NCBI GenBank assembly: GCA_947624495.1 | Contig: CANQKP010000005.1 | Span: forward strand, 1 to 34,297 | Source: an uncultured Monoglobus sp. | GTDB taxonomy: Bacteria > Bacillota > Clostridia > Monoglobales > Monoglobaceae | DNA: 34,297 nucleotides | Direction: 5' to 3' | Part shown: piece by piece, positions 25,343 to 34,297 of the stretch | Layout of the letters: every line of letters starts with the position of its first letter | How positions within the stretch are numbered: position 1 is the stretch's first letter | Program-made: the position numbers and the translations under genes | Notes under the pieces: model-generated | The model's database searches: none | What the model saw: the letters and a program-made list of their open reading frames with translations, nothing else | What the model was told of the DNA's origin: nothing

Positions 25343-25437
25343 TACTATAAAGTATATCAAAAAAGGAGTTCCCGTTAGGCGGCTTTTCATAAGACAGTAA
25401 TATCAAATTACGAAGTCTGCCAAAAAGGGTAAAATTT

Positions 25438-25474
25438 AAAACGGATAGAGAAAACTACGCTCTATCCGTTTTTT
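25438..25474. terminator. Strong orphan terminator, likely bidirectional
   Basis: AAACGGATAGAG (25439-25450) pairs with CTCTATCCGTT (25460-25470) in a perfect 11-bp stem, followed on the plus strand by six T. On the minus strand the stem is followed by TTTTAAATTTTA, also U-rich. No coding gene ends here on either strand. It may bound a small RNA or insulate hprK from the A+T-rich region. Confidence 0.75.
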
Positions 25475-25741
25475 GTGTCTTATGTCCGCATATTATACCC
25501 TTAAAACCGCGTGAAATCTTTTGTTTTTGAGGCTGAGATAAATCAAGCGATAAAAGAATATACCTATCAAAAAAATAGGGGCAGGTGTCACGCAGTAGTG
25601 GAAAAATAGACTTCCAAAACCCACGTAAAACCGTTGTTTTTATGCCTTAATTTTTTAAAAATCTGCTATGGTAATATAATTATATTATCAACCCCAAAAT
25701 TACGGTCTTAAATGTCCACGTTTGTGTAACCGATTTTTAAA
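25475..25741. other. A+T-rich stretch without a recognisable gene
   Basis: No ORF with a start and ribosome site was found. A minus-strand frame of about 60 codons ending in the hairpin at 25455 has no start signal. A short hairpin, CCTAT-CAAAAAA-ATAGG, lies near 25566-25582. The stretch might be remnant DNA from the event that brought in the A+T-rich segment. Confidence 0.4.
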
Positions 25742-25770
25742 TTGAAAAATTTATTGTATTATGGTATTAT
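25742..25770 (+). promoter_or_regulatory. Promoter of the candidate type I toxin mRNA
   Basis: TTGAAA (25742-25747), a 17-base spacer and TATTAT (25765-25770): five of six matches in each box. Transcription from about 25777 gives a leader of about 170 nt before the small ORF, starting with the perfect palindrome GCAGTTATAACTGC (25778-25791). Confidence 0.7.
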
Positions 25771-25886
25771 ATATTTGGCAGTTATAACTGCAAGTGTGGA
25801 ATATTCCGTGCGGAGAAACATTTAAGCATAAATAAAATATGCCTATCTAAAAGGCAGAGCCAAAACATAAGGACGGTTGGCCGCTT

Positions 25887-25938
25887 CACTTCCTTTCTAA
25901 ACACTTAATATCGTGTTTAAGACACAAAGAAAGGAGTG
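25887..25938 (+). promoter_or_regulatory. Hairpin covering the ribosome site of the small ORF
   Basis: CACTTCCTTTCT (25887-25898) pairs with AGAAAGGAGTG (25928-25938) over 11 bp with a one-base bulge, which buries the Shine-Dalgarno AAAGGAG. Inside it AAACAC (25899-25904) pairs with GTGTTT (25913-25918). Translation should need refolding or processing of this leader, as known for type I toxin mRNAs. Confidence 0.7.
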
Positions 25939-25945
25939 GATGCGT

Positions 25946-26029
25946 ATGAAAAATTTGTTTTGCAAAGTTTTTCTTGCATTGCTTGTAATTATCGTAATTT
26001 TTGCGATTTTTGCACAGCCAGTGCAATAG
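25946..26029 (+). CDS. 27-residue hydrophobic peptide, candidate type I toxin
   Basis: ATG at 25946 with AAAGGAG nine bases upstream (another in-frame ATG at 25940 is only three bases from it), stop TAG at 26027-26029. The peptide starts MKNLFCK, runs through one hydrophobic segment of about 17 residues ('VFLALLVIIVIFAIFA', residues 8-23) and ends in QPVQ. Short length, a Lys-containing N-terminus and a single membrane span are typical of type I membrane toxins such as TxpA, Fst or Ldr, but it is not a member I recognise. The surrounding RNA architecture (structured leader, buried ribosome site, convergent antisense RNA) supports the call. A leader peptide or fortuitous ORF cannot be excluded. 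Confidence 0.65.
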   Translation: MKNLFCKVFLALLVIIVIFAIFAQPVQ

Positions 26030-26131
26030 AAAAATAACAACCGCCTTAAAGTTTTGACCGACTCGTAAGGCGATTGTTTGATTACCTTTGAAGCGGCCAA
26101 ACCGTTTTTACGCTCTGCCGTTTCTCTTTCT
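26030..26131 (-). ncRNA. Predicted antisense RNA antitoxin of about 100 nt
   Basis: The consensus minus-strand promoter at 26138-26166 predicts a start near 26131. The RNA would end at a good intrinsic terminator: 10-bp stem 26075-26066 with 26048-26039 (one G-U), then GTTATTTTTCT down to about 26028. It therefore covers the whole region just 3' of the small ORF stop and is fully complementary to the 3' part of the toxin mRNA. Its 5' part also repeats the leader sequence ACGGTT(T)GGCCGCTTCA, so it should compete with the leader for the same 3' arm. Confidence 0.65.
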
Positions 26132-26137
26132 ATGATT

Positions 26138-26166
26138 ATTATATATTAATATTATGCTTTTGTCAA
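26138..26166 (-). promoter_or_regulatory. Consensus promoter for the antisense RNA
   Basis: On the minus strand TTGACA (plus 26161-26166), 17 bases, TATAAT (26138-26143): a perfect sigma-A promoter pointing at the small ORF with no protein gene behind it. It is stronger by sequence than the opposing promoter at 25742, as expected for an antitoxin RNA made in excess. Confidence 0.8.
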
Positions 26167-26539
26167 GGATTTTTCTTAAATCAAAATCGTTAGTAGCAGT
26201 GTCTAAATATCTCAAAAGACAACCATTTCCTGTGGATTGCAATGGCGTTTTAGGCGAAATTTCACATAATATATTCAAAATTGCTTTCCGTCAACTTTTA
26301 ATCCCAACATAATTATATATTTTATCAAAAAACTGAATTTACAGAAATTTCTCCGAAAATTTAAGTTGTTCTTTGTCATAGATTTATTCTGTTTTGCATC
26401 ACATTGTAACAAACTCATTGATACATTTGAATAAGTTTAAATTCTTTCATTTGCAGTATATAAAAGTTTATCATTTATTGATTAATTCTAAATACATCGT
26501 TAGTGTAACTCCGTAATAAATTAAATTTAAAACTATTGT
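26167..26539. other. A+T-rich intergenic stretch
   Basis: About 370 bases without an ORF that has start signals on either strand, and no convincing hairpin. No clear terminator is visible after the large gene ending at 26540. Confidence 0.5.
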
Positions 26540-29500
26540 CTATTCTTCGGATAATATACGTGCCTGAATTGAATAACTGCCATCTTCATTTGGTACATAA
26601 AATAATTCTACATTTTTATACTTTAGTATATATTTTATCAATATATCAAAAATGTCTATATTAACATTCGCATAAATAGGATATACTTGTATAAATGCAT
26701 CGCGCATAGTCTGTGCAAGAATATTTTTATATTGTGTTTCATAATCAAGCGCTTTTGATAAAAGCTCTTCCCATTTTTTTATAATGATTTCTTTATTTGC
26801 ATTATCTGCCTTAATATAATTATCTATAATATACAAAAGTGTATTCTCTGTAATAACAATAAGAAATCTCATATTAAGCATACGTTCCATATATGTAAAT
26901 AGTGTAATAATTGGAGTTTTTATATCACATAGAAAATCAATTATTCCAATACTATCAACGTTAAACTCTTTAAGTTGGGTAATAGCCATTGTAGGTATTT
27001 CAGCACCAACAAAGGTTCTTTTTGTGTTTTTGGATAATGATAAAGCATCGTAATCACATATACCAAATGCTCTCGTAAAGAGTTTGTTATTTATACCTCG
27101 AATGCTAAAATCTTGTTTATTGGAAAGGCACTTGATTTGGGAAACATAATTATTTAACTTTACCGCTTCTTGCATAAGAAGTTGTTTATTTTTTTCAGAA
27201 ACTTCATTAATAAACAATTCATCCTCTATAATACCCATAGAAGCTACTGTGTTTTTTCGATTTTTCTTTATTATATTTTCCGTATCATCTTTAATAGTGA
27301 TGTTTATTGATCTTGGTATGACTACATCATTATTGTTGAGGCTATCAATATCAACACCAATTTTATACATAGCAACAAGTGCCGCATATGAAAGAACATA
27401 ATTTTTACCAGCTATATACTTTGAATGATAAAGTTCTCTAAATATTATATCTTTATTATCTAAAAACAATAAAACTGTTTCTGTATAATTTAAATTTGTA
27501 TGCTTAGATAGGGCAAATAATGGTTGGGGAAGACTCGATAAATCCTTATAGGTATCTAGTAAATTAGAAAAAGGATTTTCAGTAATCGTGTTGGCCTTCA
27601 CCCACTTTTTAAATTCATTAATATTTTTTATTTCATTATTTTGTATGTCAAATGAAAATGCTTTAATTTTTCCGTTTTGGATCATTCTTTTATAGCAAAC
27701 ATTTACAAAATAACTATCAAGAGTTGCAATTTTCTCAATAGTGTATTTAGATTTATTTATCTCAACAGAAACACCACATTTTTTCATAAACAATCCTAAT
27801 TCAATCGCCTTGTTTCTAGTTATGTGTGTAGCATTCTCCCAATTATATGGTTCTTGAGGCAAAATATTTTCGTTGTGTATACAATATGTTTCTTCTTCCT
27901 CATTGTTGTTTTCACATACTAATGAAACTACGGTTTCCGTATCTACATATTCTCTATCAATAGATCTGCTATTAACTTCACTATTTTGTTCCTCTAAATG
28001 TATTCCGATGTAATTTCCGCAAAATTCACTAGCATCAGGGGAATTTAATAAGGCTTTTGTTATTAATTTTTTTGCTTTTATTATATCTGTTTGCATAAAA
28101 GTTTGTGCCGCTAATACTAATAGCCTTGGGCTTCCAATAGCAATTGCTGAACTAATTACATCTTCTTTAACCTGTCGTCTATTCTTGATTGAAAGTAAAA
28201 GTATCAAATCAACAATATAGGCATTATCTTTATAATATGGAAAAATATTCATCAAGGTATCCAATGCTTCAATTTCTTTACCTTGTTGCATATTTATTCT
28301 TGATTTTATATAATCCAAGCTATGTCCTACATTATGTAGTACTGTTTCATAAGACTCGATAACTTTATTTGCGTATTGAACTTTTTCATTTTTTAATAAT
28401 ATAGCAGTAAATATCAAAACAGTAATAACAAAAAATGGGTGTACTTCATCTTTATCCATTTTATTAATAATACAATCTAATAATTGGACTTTTTCATCGT
28501 TATTTGAACTATAATATAATGATACCCAATACTCTAGATACTTACCATATGTATCTTTATATTTTGCTATTATTTTAGCGTCTACATCACCTTTTGTTTC
28601 CTTAATTGCACGAACATATGTTAAATAAAGATATAAATCATTATCAATTAAATACTTATTTTCATTTAAAACAGTCATTATATGTTCTTGTGAACTTTGC
28701 GATTTTTTCCAATAATATGGTAATAGGCCAAAATAATCAGATTTAAGACAATATTTTATTATTTCTGTCTCACTTGCCTGATTATTGTCAATCTTACATT
28801 TTAAAACAATTCCTTTTATTTTTATATTTTGAAACAAATATTCAGACATATTGTCCATTATTTTCAAAGCTTCATCAACATTCAAAATTGATAACGCACG
28901 TAATAAAACTATATAATATTGTTCTTGAATTTTTTCTGATGCATATAAATATATATATTCTTCTTTCTTTAACTCTTCAGCAATGTTTGAAAGTTCGTCA
29001 AATAGTGCAGTTTCTTTATCTATTATCGGTTTATTAAGTAATACTAGTTCTTTCTTTTCATATATTAAAAGTTTATCAACAAAAGTTTTATCGTCACCTA
29101 TTATTGTTTCAATGATGCTATCAATATTGTTATAATTCTCCTTTAATATAACGCTAACAACTATTCTTTTTGTTAACCATATTTCATTCTTAAAATCATC
29201 AATTATATGAATTTGATAAATATTAGTATTACTATCCAAAGTTTTTACAAAAAAACTTTCGGCAAAATCATTAATGAGTTTTTTTACTATGCTTTTTAAT
29301 TGTTGGTTTTTTAAGTTACTCATTAATATTGACAATTTTTCTTTGCAGTTCAAATAGAATAACACTAACAATCGTGCAACATCGTCACTAATGAAAGTAT
29401 TAGCTATTTTGGAATGCGCACTTAAAATATCTTCGTTAATTACTTTATAATTGGATAAGATTTCAAGACCAATTTTAATAGCATTTTCTAAACTATCATT

Positions 29501-30139
29501 TTTCCCACTAATAAGCGGAATAATATTATATACCGTCTCAAGATTTCCTCGAAATAATTCTTTCTTTAAAGCATTATACACACGTATAATATCATCTTCG
29601 TGCATTTGTGAACTTTGTGATAATATTCTAACAGCATTTCTTAATTCATCATTGTTGTCAATTAAACTATTCATTTTATCAATTAAAATATTGGTATCTT
29701 GTTTATTAAAATAAATTATATTTCGAGTTTCGTCTGATAAATTAGAGGTGACATAGCAACGTATTTTTTCAAGAAATTGAAATAAAAAGCTTTTTACTAT
29801 CGTTTCATCATAAACTGAATATTGTTTATTATTACGCTCAAGCAAAGTTTTAAACCGATTTAATTCAAATTTTATAAATTCATCTTCTGTCTGCGTTCCT
29901 AAAGTATATCCACAAGCAAACGAAAAAACATGTTGGAGCACAGCATAATGCTTCAAAAAGTTTTCAAATTCACTAGATGTAATAATTGTTCCATCATTAT
30001 ATTTATAAAATTCTTTTAGCCATCTTTTTAATTTGCGCTTGAACTTATATAATTTGAGTTTTGGATAAAATGTATTTTTTTGATCATATATCGCATCTGA
30101 AATTAGATTGATAACGACATTTACAATATTTGAAATCAT
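26540..30139 (-). CDS. Large island protein: N-terminal helical module, helical repeats, PIN-like C-terminal region
   Basis: 1199 residues, not recognised as a named family. ATG at 30139 with AAGGAG eight bases upstream; a GTG at 30148 overlaps that site. Residues 1-160 are helical, starting with an amphipathic segment (1-18), then 'LKRWLKEFYKYNDGTIITSS', 'FENFLKHY' and 'DEFIKFELNRFKTLL'. Residues about 180-770 are helical and look like degenerate TPR-type repeats, for example 'AKKLITKALLNSPDASEF'. A region at about 880-1180 has PIN-nuclease-like spacing: 'NYVLSYAALVAMYKIGVD' (Ser917 where an Asp would be expected), 'VVIPRSINITIK', 'GICDYDALSLSKNTKRTFVG' (D1029, D1031), then 'SIGIIDFLCD'. There is no P-loop, signal peptide or membrane span. 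A+T-rich codon use marks it as foreign. Together with the next gene it may be a defence pair; that is inference. Confidence 0.75.
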   Translation of the reverse strand: MISNIVNVVINLISDAIYDQKNTFYPKLKLYKFKRKLKRWLKEFYKYNDGTIITSSEFENFLKHYAVLQHVFSFACGYTLGTQTEDEFIKFELNRFKTLLERNNKQYSVYDETIVKSFLFQFLEKIRCYVTSNLSDETRNIIYFNKQDTNILIDKMNSLIDNNDELRNAVRILSQSSQMHEDDIIRVYNALKKELFRGNLETVYNIIPLISGKNDSLENAIKIGLEILSNYKVINEDILSAHSKIANTFISDDVARLLVLFYLNCKEKLSILMSNLKNQQLKSIVKKLINDFAESFFVKTLDSNTNIYQIHIIDDFKNEIWLTKRIVVSVILKENYNNIDSIIETIIGDDKTFVDKLLIYEKKELVLLNKPIIDKETALFDELSNIAEELKKEEYIYLYASEKIQEQYYIVLLRALSILNVDEALKIMDNMSEYLFQNIKIKGIVLKCKIDNNQASETEIIKYCLKSDYFGLLPYYWKKSQSSQEHIMTVLNENKYLIDNDLYLYLTYVRAIKETKGDVDAKIIAKYKDTYGKYLEYWVSLYYSSNNDEKVQLLDCIINKMDKDEVHPFFVITVLIFTAILLKNEKVQYANKVIESYETVLHNVGHSLDYIKSRINMQQGKEIEALDTLMNIFPYYKDNAYIVDLILLLSIKNRRQVKEDVISSAIAIGSPRLLVLAAQTFMQTDIIKAKKLITKALLNSPDASEFCGNYIGIHLEEQNSEVNSRSIDREYVDTETVVSLVCENNNEEEETYCIHNENILPQEPYNWENATHITRNKAIELGLFMKKCGVSVEINKSKYTIEKIATLDSYFVNVCYKRMIQNGKIKAFSFDIQNNEIKNINEFKKWVKANTITENPFSNLLDTYKDLSSLPQPLFALSKHTNLNYTETVLLFLDNKDIIFRELYHSKYIAGKNYVLSYAALVAMYKIGVDIDSLNNNDVVIPRSINITIKDDTENIIKKNRKNTVASMGIIEDELFINEVSEKNKQLLMQEAVKLNNYVSQIKCLSNKQDFSIRGINNKLFTRAFGICDYDALSLSKNTKRTFVGAEIPTMAITQLKEFNVDSIGIIDFLCDIKTPIITLFTYMERMLNMRFLIVITENTLLYIIDNYIKADNANKEIIIKKWEELLSKALDYETQYKNILAQTMRDAFIQVYPIYANVNIDIFDILIKYILKYKNVELFYVPNEDGSYSIQARILSEE

Positions 30140-30169
30140 TTTGAACACTCCTTTTAAAGGCTATGTATC

Positions 30170-30197
30170 ATTATAACATATTACCTTTTTATTTCAA
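30170..30197 (-). promoter_or_regulatory. Promoter of the 1199-residue gene
   Basis: On the minus strand TTGAAA (plus 30192-30197), 16 bases, TATAAT (30170-30175), preceded by an extended TG. It lies about 30 bases before the ATG, so the gene can be transcribed apart from its upstream neighbour. Confidence 0.75.
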
Positions 30198-30330
30198 TGA
30201 TATATAAGAAATAATCTTTGTAATCAAAATTAAACACAATACAAGTTATCCCAAAATGCCCAACACAAAAATATTTCTTAATATATCAACGCTTTATTTT
30301 TTAAGTTGTCAGGATAGTTATATTTATTAC

Positions 30331-32079
30331 TTAATTTTTAAATAAGTTAAATATACTTTCTTTTTTTATGCGTGCCTCATCAAAAATATATGCTTTGTTA
30401 CTCTTTATAATAAATTTTCCATCTTCAAGTATCATTGGTTCGTTACTGTGTACAGCAATTTTGATATCATCAGAAAGGGATATTCGGGTGTCTAAAATAT
30501 ATATATTATTTTCAACTGTAAATATAAAATTAATATCATTTGATAATAAAATTCTACTATCATATTTTTCCTTTGAGATAATATCATTTTCTGATATTAT
30601 GACTCTATCAAAATTAATGGCAGAATATCCCTTTTCAATTACATTTGATAAAAAAGTAATCTGCTCTATATCAATAGCTTCTATAATTACAGGCATATTA
30701 ATGCTAAGGTTATATACATTTTCAATTTGTATTAGTCTTCTTAATATATCTATCTTGGATTTATATTCGTTTATTATATCTTTTGCATGAATGTGGAAAT
30801 CCTCCGTTTCAAAAATTATATTATCATCATTATCTATACATATAATAGATTTAGAATTATATAATGCATAAGTTCGTCTATACAATTCAAAAACTTGCTT
30901 AACGGAATTTTGTTTAGTAGGTATTATACTAAAATTTGATTTGTGAGAAGTATTTTGATTTGATACATTTTCTTCTGTTAATTGCAGATCAAATTTATAG
31001 ATTAAACCCTTATTATCTTCACCTTTCAAAACAATATTAAAGATACCATCTACATAGTTGCTTGTTACTATATACTTGGTAAATGGTATTACTACTGCTC
31101 CCAAATCATTTTCAACACTAAAAGATATATATTTAACACTTGGTTTAATTATCACGTCCATTGCCTGAAAATCGCCATTATATAATGGACAATTTTTTGC
31201 ATATATTGTTGGTAATCGCATTTTCAAACCATTGTAAGAACTATTATTATATTCTTTTAAAACTTTCCCATCATGCGTTTTGATAACGAAAAAACAAACC
31301 TTGAATTTAGCTTCCTCACCCTTCAAACGCAAAAACGATAATAGTTCGTCAAAACTATTGAAATTCGTTTTTCTTAAATCAACTTCTATTTCAGCATCGA
31401 TACAAAAATCTTTTTCATTTTTCTTGGCTGCCAAAGTTATATTATAGTCATCCCATGAAAATGATTTAATTTCTTCTGCTCGAATAGGAGAGCCTAATTG
31501 TTTCTCTAAATTTTCTATTTTTAATGATATCTTATCTATTTCTTGCTCCACATTCGATAAACGAACATCTGATTTAGAAGTACTGGAAGACAATAATTCT
31601 TTAATATCTATTTTGGCGCTATCAATTTGATCTAATATTTCGTCCCGAGTATTCAAAATAATATTTGCCATACGTCTCGTATTATCATCCAAAGGTGTAT
31701 TAAAAGTTATATAGGTGGCAAACATTATATTTTTTAATATATTAGTTAAGCGAGATCTCTCATATGGCGCCGGGAGATCATATGATTCTACAAGTTCATC
31801 AATAAAATTATTTGCAGTTTTAGTATCTATGATATTTCTACTAAAACAACGCCTAATAATTTTATCTTCGTTTTTTAAGATAATTTCACTTACACTATCA
31901 TAAAAAGGCTCATTATTATACTTACTGTGCAAAACCAATTCAAGATTTTTCTTATACTCTTTCAACTGTGAATTCATATTATGTTCGTGAATTTGATCTT
32001 TCAACTTTGCGACAAACTTATTTATTATTTTTTTACCTATAGTTGTTATAATTTTTTCAATCAATAATGCTTCAGTCAT
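30331..32079 (-). CDS. Island protein of unknown function: helical module, coiled coil, beta-rich regions
   Basis: 582 residues from the ATG at 32079. Earlier in-frame ATGs at 32091/32088 are possible; the one at 32121 falls upstream of the predicted transcript start. Residues 1-165 are helical: amphipathic start 'MTEALLIEKIITTIGKKIIN', 'LKEYKKNLELVL', 'YDSVSEIILKNEDKI', 'NNFIDELVESYDLP' and 'TRRMANIILNTRDEILDQID'. By eye this follows the same helix order as the start of the neighbouring 1199-residue protein. A coiled coil lies at about 172-196. The remainder is mostly beta-strand, with possible sandwich-like blocks at 205-370 and repeated strand-turn patterns at 480-582 ('SRILLSNDINFIFTVENNIY'). 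No catalytic motif, signal or membrane span is seen. Strongly A+T-rich codons. Confidence 0.75.
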   Translation of the reverse strand: MTEALLIEKIITTIGKKIINKFVAKLKDQIHEHNMNSQLKEYKKNLELVLHSKYNNEPFYDSVSEIILKNEDKIIRRCFSRNIIDTKTANNFIDELVESYDLPAPYERSRLTNILKNIMFATYITFNTPLDDNTRRMANIILNTRDEILDQIDSAKIDIKELLSSSTSKSDVRLSNVEQEIDKISLKIENLEKQLGSPIRAEEIKSFSWDDYNITLAAKKNEKDFCIDAEIEVDLRKTNFNSFDELLSFLRLKGEEAKFKVCFFVIKTHDGKVLKEYNNSSYNGLKMRLPTIYAKNCPLYNGDFQAMDVIIKPSVKYISFSVENDLGAVVIPFTKYIVTSNYVDGIFNIVLKGEDNKGLIYKFDLQLTEENVSNQNTSHKSNFSIIPTKQNSVKQVFELYRRTYALYNSKSIICIDNDDNIIFETEDFHIHAKDIINEYKSKIDILRRLIQIENVYNLSINMPVIIEAIDIEQITFLSNVIEKGYSAINFDRVIISENDIISKEKYDSRILLSNDINFIFTVENNIYILDTRISLSDDIKIAVHSNEPMILEDGKFIIKSNKAYIFDEARIKKESIFNLFKN

Positions 32080-32111
32080 ATTTATCATCATCCAATCTTT
32101 ATTATGGTTTA

Positions 32112-32140
32112 ATGCTACCATATTTCTTGATTATTGTCAA
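32112..32140 (-). promoter_or_regulatory. Promoter of the 582-residue gene
   Basis: On the minus strand TTGACA (plus 32135-32140), 17 bases, TAGCAT (32112-32117) with an extended TGG before it. A start near 32105 would exclude the ATG at 32121, which supports the shorter protein. Confidence 0.7.
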
Positions 32141-32272
32141 CATTCAACAAATATTTGAACATATGTGTAATTTAATATATTGCCGAATCGTAATACAATA
32201 GATATTGCTTTTAAAAATCATTATTTATCTTAATATATTTTTTAATTCGTTCCAAAATTTTACACATATGAA

Positions 32273-32298
32273 AACGAGCGGCGCATTGGCCGCTCGTT
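32273..32298 (-). terminator. Terminator of the secreted-protein gene
   Basis: A perfect 10-bp stem, AACGAGCGGC (32273-32282) and GCCGCTCGTT (32289-32298), six-base loop, followed on the minus strand by TTCAT. It lies 16 bases past the stop at 32315. It also marks the right border of the A+T-rich segment. Confidence 0.8.
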
Positions 32299-32314
32299 GA
32301 CTTTAGCTCATTTT

Positions 32315-34297
32315 TCAGTTTAATATCTCATAATCCTTTTCAAACACTTCGCTAATCGGGGTTATTTCGTTTGTGTTGTTCCATAGTAACAGTTTCAGCT
32401 TATATCGGCCGCTCAAGCCGCTGCAGTCAAAAGTAATATCTTGTATATTTTCGCCTCTGACAAAGCTTTGATTTTCGTTGATCATCACTTTCTTTAATAC
32501 ATCCCCCGTCGGATTATAAGCCGCCAGAATAACTGCCGCGTTATCAATTTTTCCGGCGTTGTTGGTGGTTTTAACCGACAGCTTAATTTGATTACTGTCT
32601 TGGATATACTCATCATCAATTACAACGAAATCCGTAACATCCGAGTCATTCTTGAAATAAGCGGCGGAGTAATTATTGTATTCGTCAATATCGTTTGCCA
32701 AGCTTGATACCGCGTAATATACCGCCTCCGTATCCGTTATTTCAACCGGCGCTTTCACAATCGTATTTTCAAGCGGCATTATGTTTTCAACGGTTTCCCG
32801 ATACACGACCTCGCCGTCAATTGAGCCTTTATGTATTTGAACTTCCACATTATCGGCTGCCACCGAGCCCCTGTTTTCAATAACCGCGTTAACATAATAT
32901 CTGCCGCCCTCATTTGTGACATACGCGTTTGATACCGCCGCGTCTGCCGAGCCTATGACTGTGGTTCCGATATTATCGTCGATATTAAAATCTTCATACT
33001 TCGACGGCAGCGCCTTAATCATGAGGTTTTTGACCGTGTTTGATACATCCGGCATATACGAAACGGCTATATTTTTGGTTTCTCCGGCCTTTATAACATC
33101 ATTTCTTTCAATTGTTTGCTTCAGCTCATCATTTTCATAGACTTCGACAGTTATACCGTTTATTTCTTCTTCTCCGACATTGTCGCAATCAAACGACAAT
33201 GCTATCATGCCCGTTTTGGCATAGGCGTCCTCGCTGACATCCAAAGTGTCCCGATCAAGTGAAATATTATAGGTCGGAACAATGGTGTTCACAAACAAAT
33301 CTGTTTCTCCGGTAGAATAGCCGCCGTCGTCATTTACAACAGCCTTTCCCGTCTTCATATAATTTACCGTGAATGTGCCATCCGCGTTTACGATGATCCC
33401 CGGGTCGCTTATATTATGCTCATCGCCGACAAAGGTTATTTTCTCACTCCATTTTCCGTTGTTGTATCTGACTCCGCACAGCGTGTCATAACCGTTATTG
33501 TGGTCGATCCAGCAGATGTACATATTATTGCCGTTTGATCTTATCACGGGGATAGAATTTAAGTTAATGTCGGCGTTGATCGCGGTTTGCGTCTTTTTGC
33601 CCAAAACATCGTTAATGATCTGCAATTTGTTATCGGCGTCAAAATATGCCAAGACGGTCTTTCCGTTTAAATTGCCAATCGTGTATTGACCGACGCCGGT
33701 ATAATTCAATTGCTTTGTTGAGCCGTCAGTCATTGAAACATAATATATTATACCGTCTTTTTTATAAAATATATTTTCGTTCATTCCGTCCATAGCGATT
33801 CTGGTGACCGCGCCGATATTCTCTACGGTAGCAACATCGGACCAGTCGGAGCCGTTAAACGTCGCGTAATGCAAATCGGTTGTGCCGCTTTGCGATGATA
33901 AATCGGCTTCGGAATTAGAGAGCCACGCCGCGGCCGCGGTATCGCCGTTTGACGAGACCGTTGGTGAAAAATCAAATGTGTTATTGTCGGTCAAGCGCTT
34001 AGATACCCATTCCGTGCCGTTTAAGTACGCGGCGGATATCTCCGTCTGCGATAAGATATCTTTCATCGGCATATCGCCCGACGACATCACGGATCTCATA
34101 TCCTCCCACACCACAAATTTTCCGCTTGCGGATATTGTGCTGTCAAGCGTGCCGTCGTCTTGCACGGGCACAGGCGCTGACCATGTTCCGTCACTGTTCT
34201 GAGCGGAGCATACCAATTTAAGTCCGTTTTGCTGTTCGCGTTCATCGGCGTCAACCGTAAAATACAGATAATTTGTGCCGTTGATGTTTTGCAAAAC
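32315..34297 (-). CDS. Secreted/surface protein, beta-propeller plus CARDB-like domains (N-terminus outside window)
   Basis: At least 660 codons; the frame stays open to the right edge, so the true start and any signal peptide are not visible. The first 340 or so visible residues have propeller-like repeats with motifs such as 'QNSDGTWSAPVPVQDD', 'FNGSDWSDVATVENIG' and 'YNNGKWSEKITFVGDEHNIS'. Two to three immunoglobulin-like CARDB-type domains follow, for example 'AVIENRGSVAADNVEVQIHK' (second) and 'LSVKTTNNAGKIDNAAVILA' (third). No LPXTG, membrane anchor or catalytic motif is seen at the C-terminus, which ends in '...FEKDYEILN'. It is likely exported and involved in carbohydrate or surface binding; that is inference. 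Base composition matches the core genome, not the island. Confidence 0.75.
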   Translation of the reverse strand, partial: VLQNINGTNYLYFTVDADEREQQNGLKLVCSAQNSDGTWSAPVPVQDDGTLDSTISASGKFVVWEDMRSVMSSGDMPMKDILSQTEISAAYLNGTEWVSKRLTDNNTFDFSPTVSSNGDTAAAAWLSNSEADLSSQSGTTDLHYATFNGSDWSDVATVENIGAVTRIAMDGMNENIFYKKDGIIYYVSMTDGSTKQLNYTGVGQYTIGNLNGKTVLAYFDADNKLQIINDVLGKKTQTAINADINLNSIPVIRSNGNNMYICWIDHNNGYDTLCGVRYNNGKWSEKITFVGDEHNISDPGIIVNADGTFTVNYMKTGKAVVNDDGGYSTGETDLFVNTIVPTYNISLDRDTLDVSEDAYAKTGMIALSFDCDNVGEEEINGITVEVYENDELKQTIERNDVIKAGETKNIAVSYMPDVSNTVKNLMIKALPSKYEDFNIDDNIGTTVIGSADAAVSNAYVTNEGGRYYVNAVIENRGSVAADNVEVQIHKGSIDGEVVYRETVENIMPLENTIVKAPVEITDTEAVYYAVSSLANDIDEYNNYSAAYFKNDSDVTDFVVIDDEYIQDSNQIKLSVKTTNNAGKIDNAAVILAAYNPTGDVLKKVMINENQSFVRGENIQDITFDCSGLSGRYKLKLLLWNNTNEITPISEVFEKDYEILN

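Follow-up and report, generated by a model that had tools for sequence, protein, structure and literature searches.

STAND defence proteins, among them the Avs proteins, carry their effector as the N-terminal domain (PMC12931631). Effector-associated domains (EADs) may occur as copies in adjacent genes, and as a rule the nearest relative of such a copy is its neighbour (Kaur 2020, PMC7159879). The TPR-GreAB-C-PIN system (PF20698) consists mostly of stand-alone genes that evolve rapidly and whose N-terminus is exchanged among many modules (Kaur 2021, PMC8195603).

The locus compared here with these systems, two large genes that we call A and B, lies in a stretch of 34,297 nucleotides (hereafter the window) that makes up contig C5 of a Monoglobus genome (2.05 Mb, 179 contigs); its features are collected in Table 1. 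Some 140 N-terminal residues of A are homologous, without gaps, to those of one clostridial Avs2 (AVAST type 2, a STAND NTPase), and the two have the motif NDGTII-SS-F-N in common; unlike Avs2, A has neither a P-loop nor a STAND domain, matches no Avs2 model of PADLOC or NCBIfam and continues in a different body. The same N-terminus resembles an EAD in being small (~165 residues), all-helical when modelled and free of enzyme family matches, and the neighbouring gene may hold a second copy, but it matches no EAD profile in Pfam and this putative copy is not its closest relative. With the TPR-GreAB-C-PIN proteins, A has in common its large size, an N-terminal module of the exchangeable kind and, possibly, a PIN-like region towards the C-terminus; it differs from them in that the PIN match is below the cut-off, GreA/B-C and TPR are not detectable and the setting is one of two genes.

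Table 1. Features of the insert and of genes A and B, in window coordinates
Feature	Position	Strand	Remarks
Insert with genes B and A	~26185-32191	.	empty site in a congener; drop in GC
Gene A, as listed	26540-30148	-	ORF, 1202 aa; GTG start at 30148
Gene A, likelier ATG start	26540..30139	-	~1199 aa; AAAGGAG eight bases upstream
N-terminal module of A, residues 4-167	29648..30139	-	seven helices; homologous to a clostridial Avs2 N-terminus
Motif NDGTIITSSEFEN, A residues 51-63	29960..29998	-	NDGTII-SS-F-N in the clostridial Avs2; absent from B
Possible worn GreA/B-C-like segment, A residues 776-807	27728..27823	-	by eye only; no Pfam match
Candidate PIN-like region, A residues 940-1046	27011..27331	-	PF20698 below cut-off; most canonical acidic positions apparently lost
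C-terminal small domain of A, residues 1078-1202	26543..26917	-	helices and a strand pair; single-sequence model
Promoter-like site upstream of A	30170..30197	-	TTGAAA-16-TATAAT, TG before -10; consensus scan 11/12
Gene B, as listed	30331-32121	-	ORF, 596 aa
Gene B, likelier start 32079	30331..32079	-	start choice read from sequence
N-terminal helical region of B, residues 15-179	31585..32079	-	possible divergent copy of the A module; suggestive only
Promoter-like site upstream of B	32112..32140	-	TTGACA-17-TAGCAT, TG before -10; consensus scan 10/12

An insert of two genes

The island is genuine and its boundaries are sharp. In DNA searches within the genus, a contig of a congener aligned with the window on either side of it, positions 134-734 of G010:C11 with 25582-26189 (94%) and positions 743-2852 with 32189-34297 (97%); the two matches are adjacent there and the ~6.0 kb between them are absent, so that the congener presents the empty site. 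The hexamer AATCGT stands at each end of the insert (26185-26190 and 32186-32191) and may be a target-site duplication or microhomology. The insert has a GC content of 26.1%, against 48.8% in the left flank and 43.2% in the right, and third-position GC is 18-20% in its genes against 62% in hprK. Its only content is two genes on the same strand, B and then A; transposases and integrases are absent from within it, as are defence genes from its flanks. Because the insert is present here and the site is empty in the congener, B and A form a single unit of gain or loss, of which one case was seen. A preliminary description had proposed a two-gene island of foreign base composition: the composition holds, with a stretch at 26-32 kb in which GC falls to 23-29% amid DNA of about 50%, and the island, with its two large ORFs on one strand and an empty counterpart, is better founded than was then claimed.

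The genes on the left, hprK, a PHP-domain gene, murB and rapZ, are ordinary and have a GC content of ~50%. Between them and the insert, a hydrophobic ORF of 27 residues (25946-26029, plus strand; MKNLFCKVFLALLVIIVIFAIFAQPVQ) resembles a type I toxin; it is held within a repeat (25719-26173) that occurs many times over in most of the genomes of the genus, and the region gave no Rfam match. The same description had taken this toxin locus as support for a defence role; we rejected it as a part of the island, as its position is beyond the insert, the empty site has it too and the repeat to which it belongs is scattered genus-wide, and it is uninformative on the island. The hprK flank is common to other genomes only up to 25343, the repeat region begins at 25375, and in the congener hprK is on one contig, the gene at 32315-34297 on another together with the toxin locus; the discontinuity at 25343-25582 comes either from a rearrangement at the repeat or from a join made in assembly. 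The gene at 32315-34297 encodes a long, secreted-looking beta-repeat protein that runs off the contig end and has only weak Pfam matches.

As wholes, A and B match nothing above the cut-off in Pfam, PADLOC, NCBIfam or PHROGs, nor any phage-defence family, and sequence comparison with solved structures gave no match beyond chance; a P-loop (GxxxxGK[ST]) and an RxxxxH-type HEPN motif are absent from both. The lack of known enzyme families, part of the original case for a defence system, is borne out by these searches. B consists of a helical N-terminus followed by a region matching no family. Each gene has its own promoter-like site, so that joint expression is not certain; the sites come from a consensus scan and are candidates, not proof of function. 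A search with full-length A across 341 clostridial genomes, plasmids, phages and viral contigs returned only a near-identical partial copy, 99% identical over residues 761-1202, at a contig end of a Monoglobus metagenome-assembled genome (MAG), the closest relative that sequence comparison gave for the present genome. There, A breaks off around residue 760, where 78 unrelated bases take up the end of the contig (L004:1-79), and the copy may be a remnant left by truncation or an artefact of assembly; a B gene was not found in this MAG, and no relatives of B were found in the same collection. A weak match in genome G356 from the full-length searches carries stop codons and was discarded as noise.

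The N-terminal module of A

Searched alone against 332 clostridial genomes, residues 1-167 of A gave one strong match (G116:C18:346148-346567, E 3.7e-10), which the search with the full-length protein had missed. In BLASTP, residues 8-146 aligned without gaps with residues 2-140 of the matching clostridial protein, of 1374 aa (E 4e-6; 36/139 identical, 26%), and the two N-termini stand at a z of 16 against shuffled sequences. This protein (L073:5450-9574) is Avs2, by both NCBIfam (NF041813, 1122.9 bits, cut-off 1000) and PADLOC (PDLC02162, E 0, 1123 bits). The two models start at its residues 189 and 145, behind the stretch common to A, which thus has the place of the exchangeable effector of Avs proteins; as the module lies outside the Avs2 models, it is one of several exchangeable heads. 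A structural model made from the two sequences (mean pLDDT 69, pTM 0.66) consists wholly of helices, seven in number, and a structure search with it yielded nothing in the PDB at an E below 0.3. On the evidence of the alignments, the N-terminus of A is a true module that recurs on an Avs2 protein, and A itself has a defence-associated front module on a different body that has no P-loop. Among the 332 genomes searched, one Avs2 carrier of the module was seen, and no further copy was found elsewhere in G116.

Apart from the match in G116, the matches to the N-termini of A and B that we inspected are weak and fall inside unrelated proteins; one on a Paenibacillus plasmid (E 2) has a mid-protein position, and one on an Aneurinibacillus plasmid (E 2) is in a gene of phage type with portal and terminase genes nearby. 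The interval L073:10145-12463, upstream of the clostridial Avs2, holds a membrane-plus-coiled-coil protein and an apparent graspetide pair, in which an ATP-grasp-like protein goes with a peptide of repeated TLITxTREGIDRSE units.

The N-terminus of B

The preliminary description had judged, by visual comparison, that A and B begin with the same kind of helical module. Its first half stands, in that the N-terminus of A recurs on Avs2 and is modelled as all-helical; for B, the likeness is suggestive. The predicted order of helices is similar in the two by eye, and a parallel can be seen by eye near the module end, between YVTSNLSDETRNIIYFNKQDTNILIDKM in A and YITFNTPLDDNTRRMANIILNTRDEILDQI in B. 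The NDGTIIxSSxFxN motif is missing from B, and BLASTP of A against B gave no match at the N-termini. An end-to-end alignment of the two N-termini scores 56 (z 4.2); no other pair of windows tested scores as high, and 0.4% of shuffles reach this value. Against real proteins, with the N-terminus of B as the query, the A-B score was reached by 0/570 unrelated windows and the B-Avs2 score by 0.7%; with the N-terminus of A as the query, 1/428 reached the A-B score, that one (144) being Avs2 itself, whose locus had been left in the null. An earlier null, made of loci fetched as matches, was judged to be biased and was replaced by the other real-protein null.

Comparisons by profile gave a divided answer. 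HHalign assigned the pair a probability of 0.4%. An HMM built from the N-termini of A and Avs2 gave B 11.9 bits without bias correction, a score reached by 3/1991 shuffles and 0/479 real windows; with bias correction, the same HMM gave 0.6 bits, which 394/987 shuffles reached. Judging from these comparisons, a common origin of the two N-termini is possible, and we would put it a little better than even. The stronger idea, one adaptor module on both proteins as in EADs, is not demonstrated: the N-terminus of A is far closer to that of Avs2 (z 16) than to that of B (z about 4), and the tendency of adjacent EAD copies to be each other's closest relatives is not seen here.

Readings of the locus

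We read the insert as a mobile two-gene phage-defence cassette in which A senses or scaffolds and its N-terminal module acts through B, a proposal that we hold to be evenly balanced between true and false; the cassette is probably anti-phage and previously undescribed. A two-component defence system, which the preliminary description had found plausible, remains the best reading, given a single AT-rich insert and an N-terminal module homologous to the domain in the effector position of Avs2, while its premise of EAD-type sharing is not demonstrated. The reading draws on the empty site, the foreign composition and the homology with Avs2, on the suggestive likeness of the two N-termini with the same order of helices and on the helical starts of both proteins, which have no P-loop and match no housekeeping family. 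In this cassette, the middle and C-terminal parts of A, probably helical repeats with a fast-evolving C-terminal region, would be the sensor or scaffold, and the N-terminal module a transferable effector or recruitment domain. Phage infection would cause A to change its conformation or to oligomerise; the module would then act, most likely by engaging B through the helical N-terminus of the latter, and the C-terminal part of B would damage or stall the infected cell. Against the defence reading count the single Avs2 carrier in 332 genomes, the co-occurrence of A and B in this insert alone, the lack of a phage-defence family match to either whole protein, the flanks free of defence genes and the separate promoter-like sites; against the recruitment step counts the failure of the B homology in the bias-corrected HMM and in HHalign. 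The most specific version, in which A is an NTPase-free receptor with an Avs2 head that recruits B, an effector bearing a divergent copy of that head, we consider unlikely; in it, anti-phage sensors with and without an NTPase would use a single recruitment code.

The C-terminal half of A leads to another explanation, namely that A is a divergent stand-alone TPR-GreAB-C-PIN protein, with a variable N-terminal module, TPR, a worn GreA/B-C domain touching RNA polymerase and a PIN RNase cutting transcripts, and that B is an independent passenger. The match to PF20698 (profile positions 24-125 of 138) is the one expected from such an architecture, and the family does evolve rapidly and vary at its N-terminus, where many modules replace one another (PMC8195603); the look of the sequence had also led us to foresee the match ahead of the search, and this lends it somewhat more weight. 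Its score, however, is 14.9-16.2 bits (E 0.013-0.032) against a cut-off of 27.8, and Pox_TAP, surely a spurious family, scores higher in the same scan. The acidic residues of PIN seem mostly lost, with one canonical position clear by eye (DYDALSL), and in a single-sequence model of the C-terminal part of A, the PIN-like region is unfolded (pLDDT 20-40) and the fold does not form. The small domain that follows is modelled with a pLDDT mostly of 64-90 (blocks of ten, model residues 201-310) and gave no fold match with E below 0.3 in a search of PDB structures. No fitting Pfam match to TPR or GreA/B-C was found in residues 170-880 at E 10, and PF20698 has no match above the cut-off in 341 + 330 genomes, where three weak matches fell on a short ORF, a small PIN protein and a sigma-54 activator, none of them related to A. 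Finally, A sits in a two-gene insert, whereas the known system is mostly stand-alone. Membership of A in this system is not established, and we regard the explanation as somewhat unlikely.

The insert could also be the remnant of an ordinary genomic island, its genes mere cargo and the module a widespread helical domain with no special link to defence. Relatives are indeed very few, and the module is found on just one other protein; that sole carrier, however, is an anti-phage NTPase of a well-defined type in which the module takes the effector position, the two long ORFs have stayed intact under AT-rich drift and the empty site is clean, all of which make this quite improbable. Least probable of all is a pair that has no connection with phages, either toxin-antitoxin-like or serving conflict between bacteria, in which one protein restrains the other: adjacent genes on one small foreign insert would suit it, and their sizes, unlike those of classic pairs, fit large two-gene addiction modules, but neither gene matches a toxin or antitoxin family, the front module of A is common to a phage sensor (Avs2), and the separate promoter-like sites weakly oppose a tight coupling.

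Overall, if the reading of the insert as a phage-defence cassette is true, B and A would make up a defence cassette overlooked by present defence finders. The head at the N-terminus of some Avs2 proteins, so far uncharacterised, would then be tied to a second, unrelated protein body, and one module on two chassis, with a partner gene adjoining one of them, would give a handle on the function of the head.
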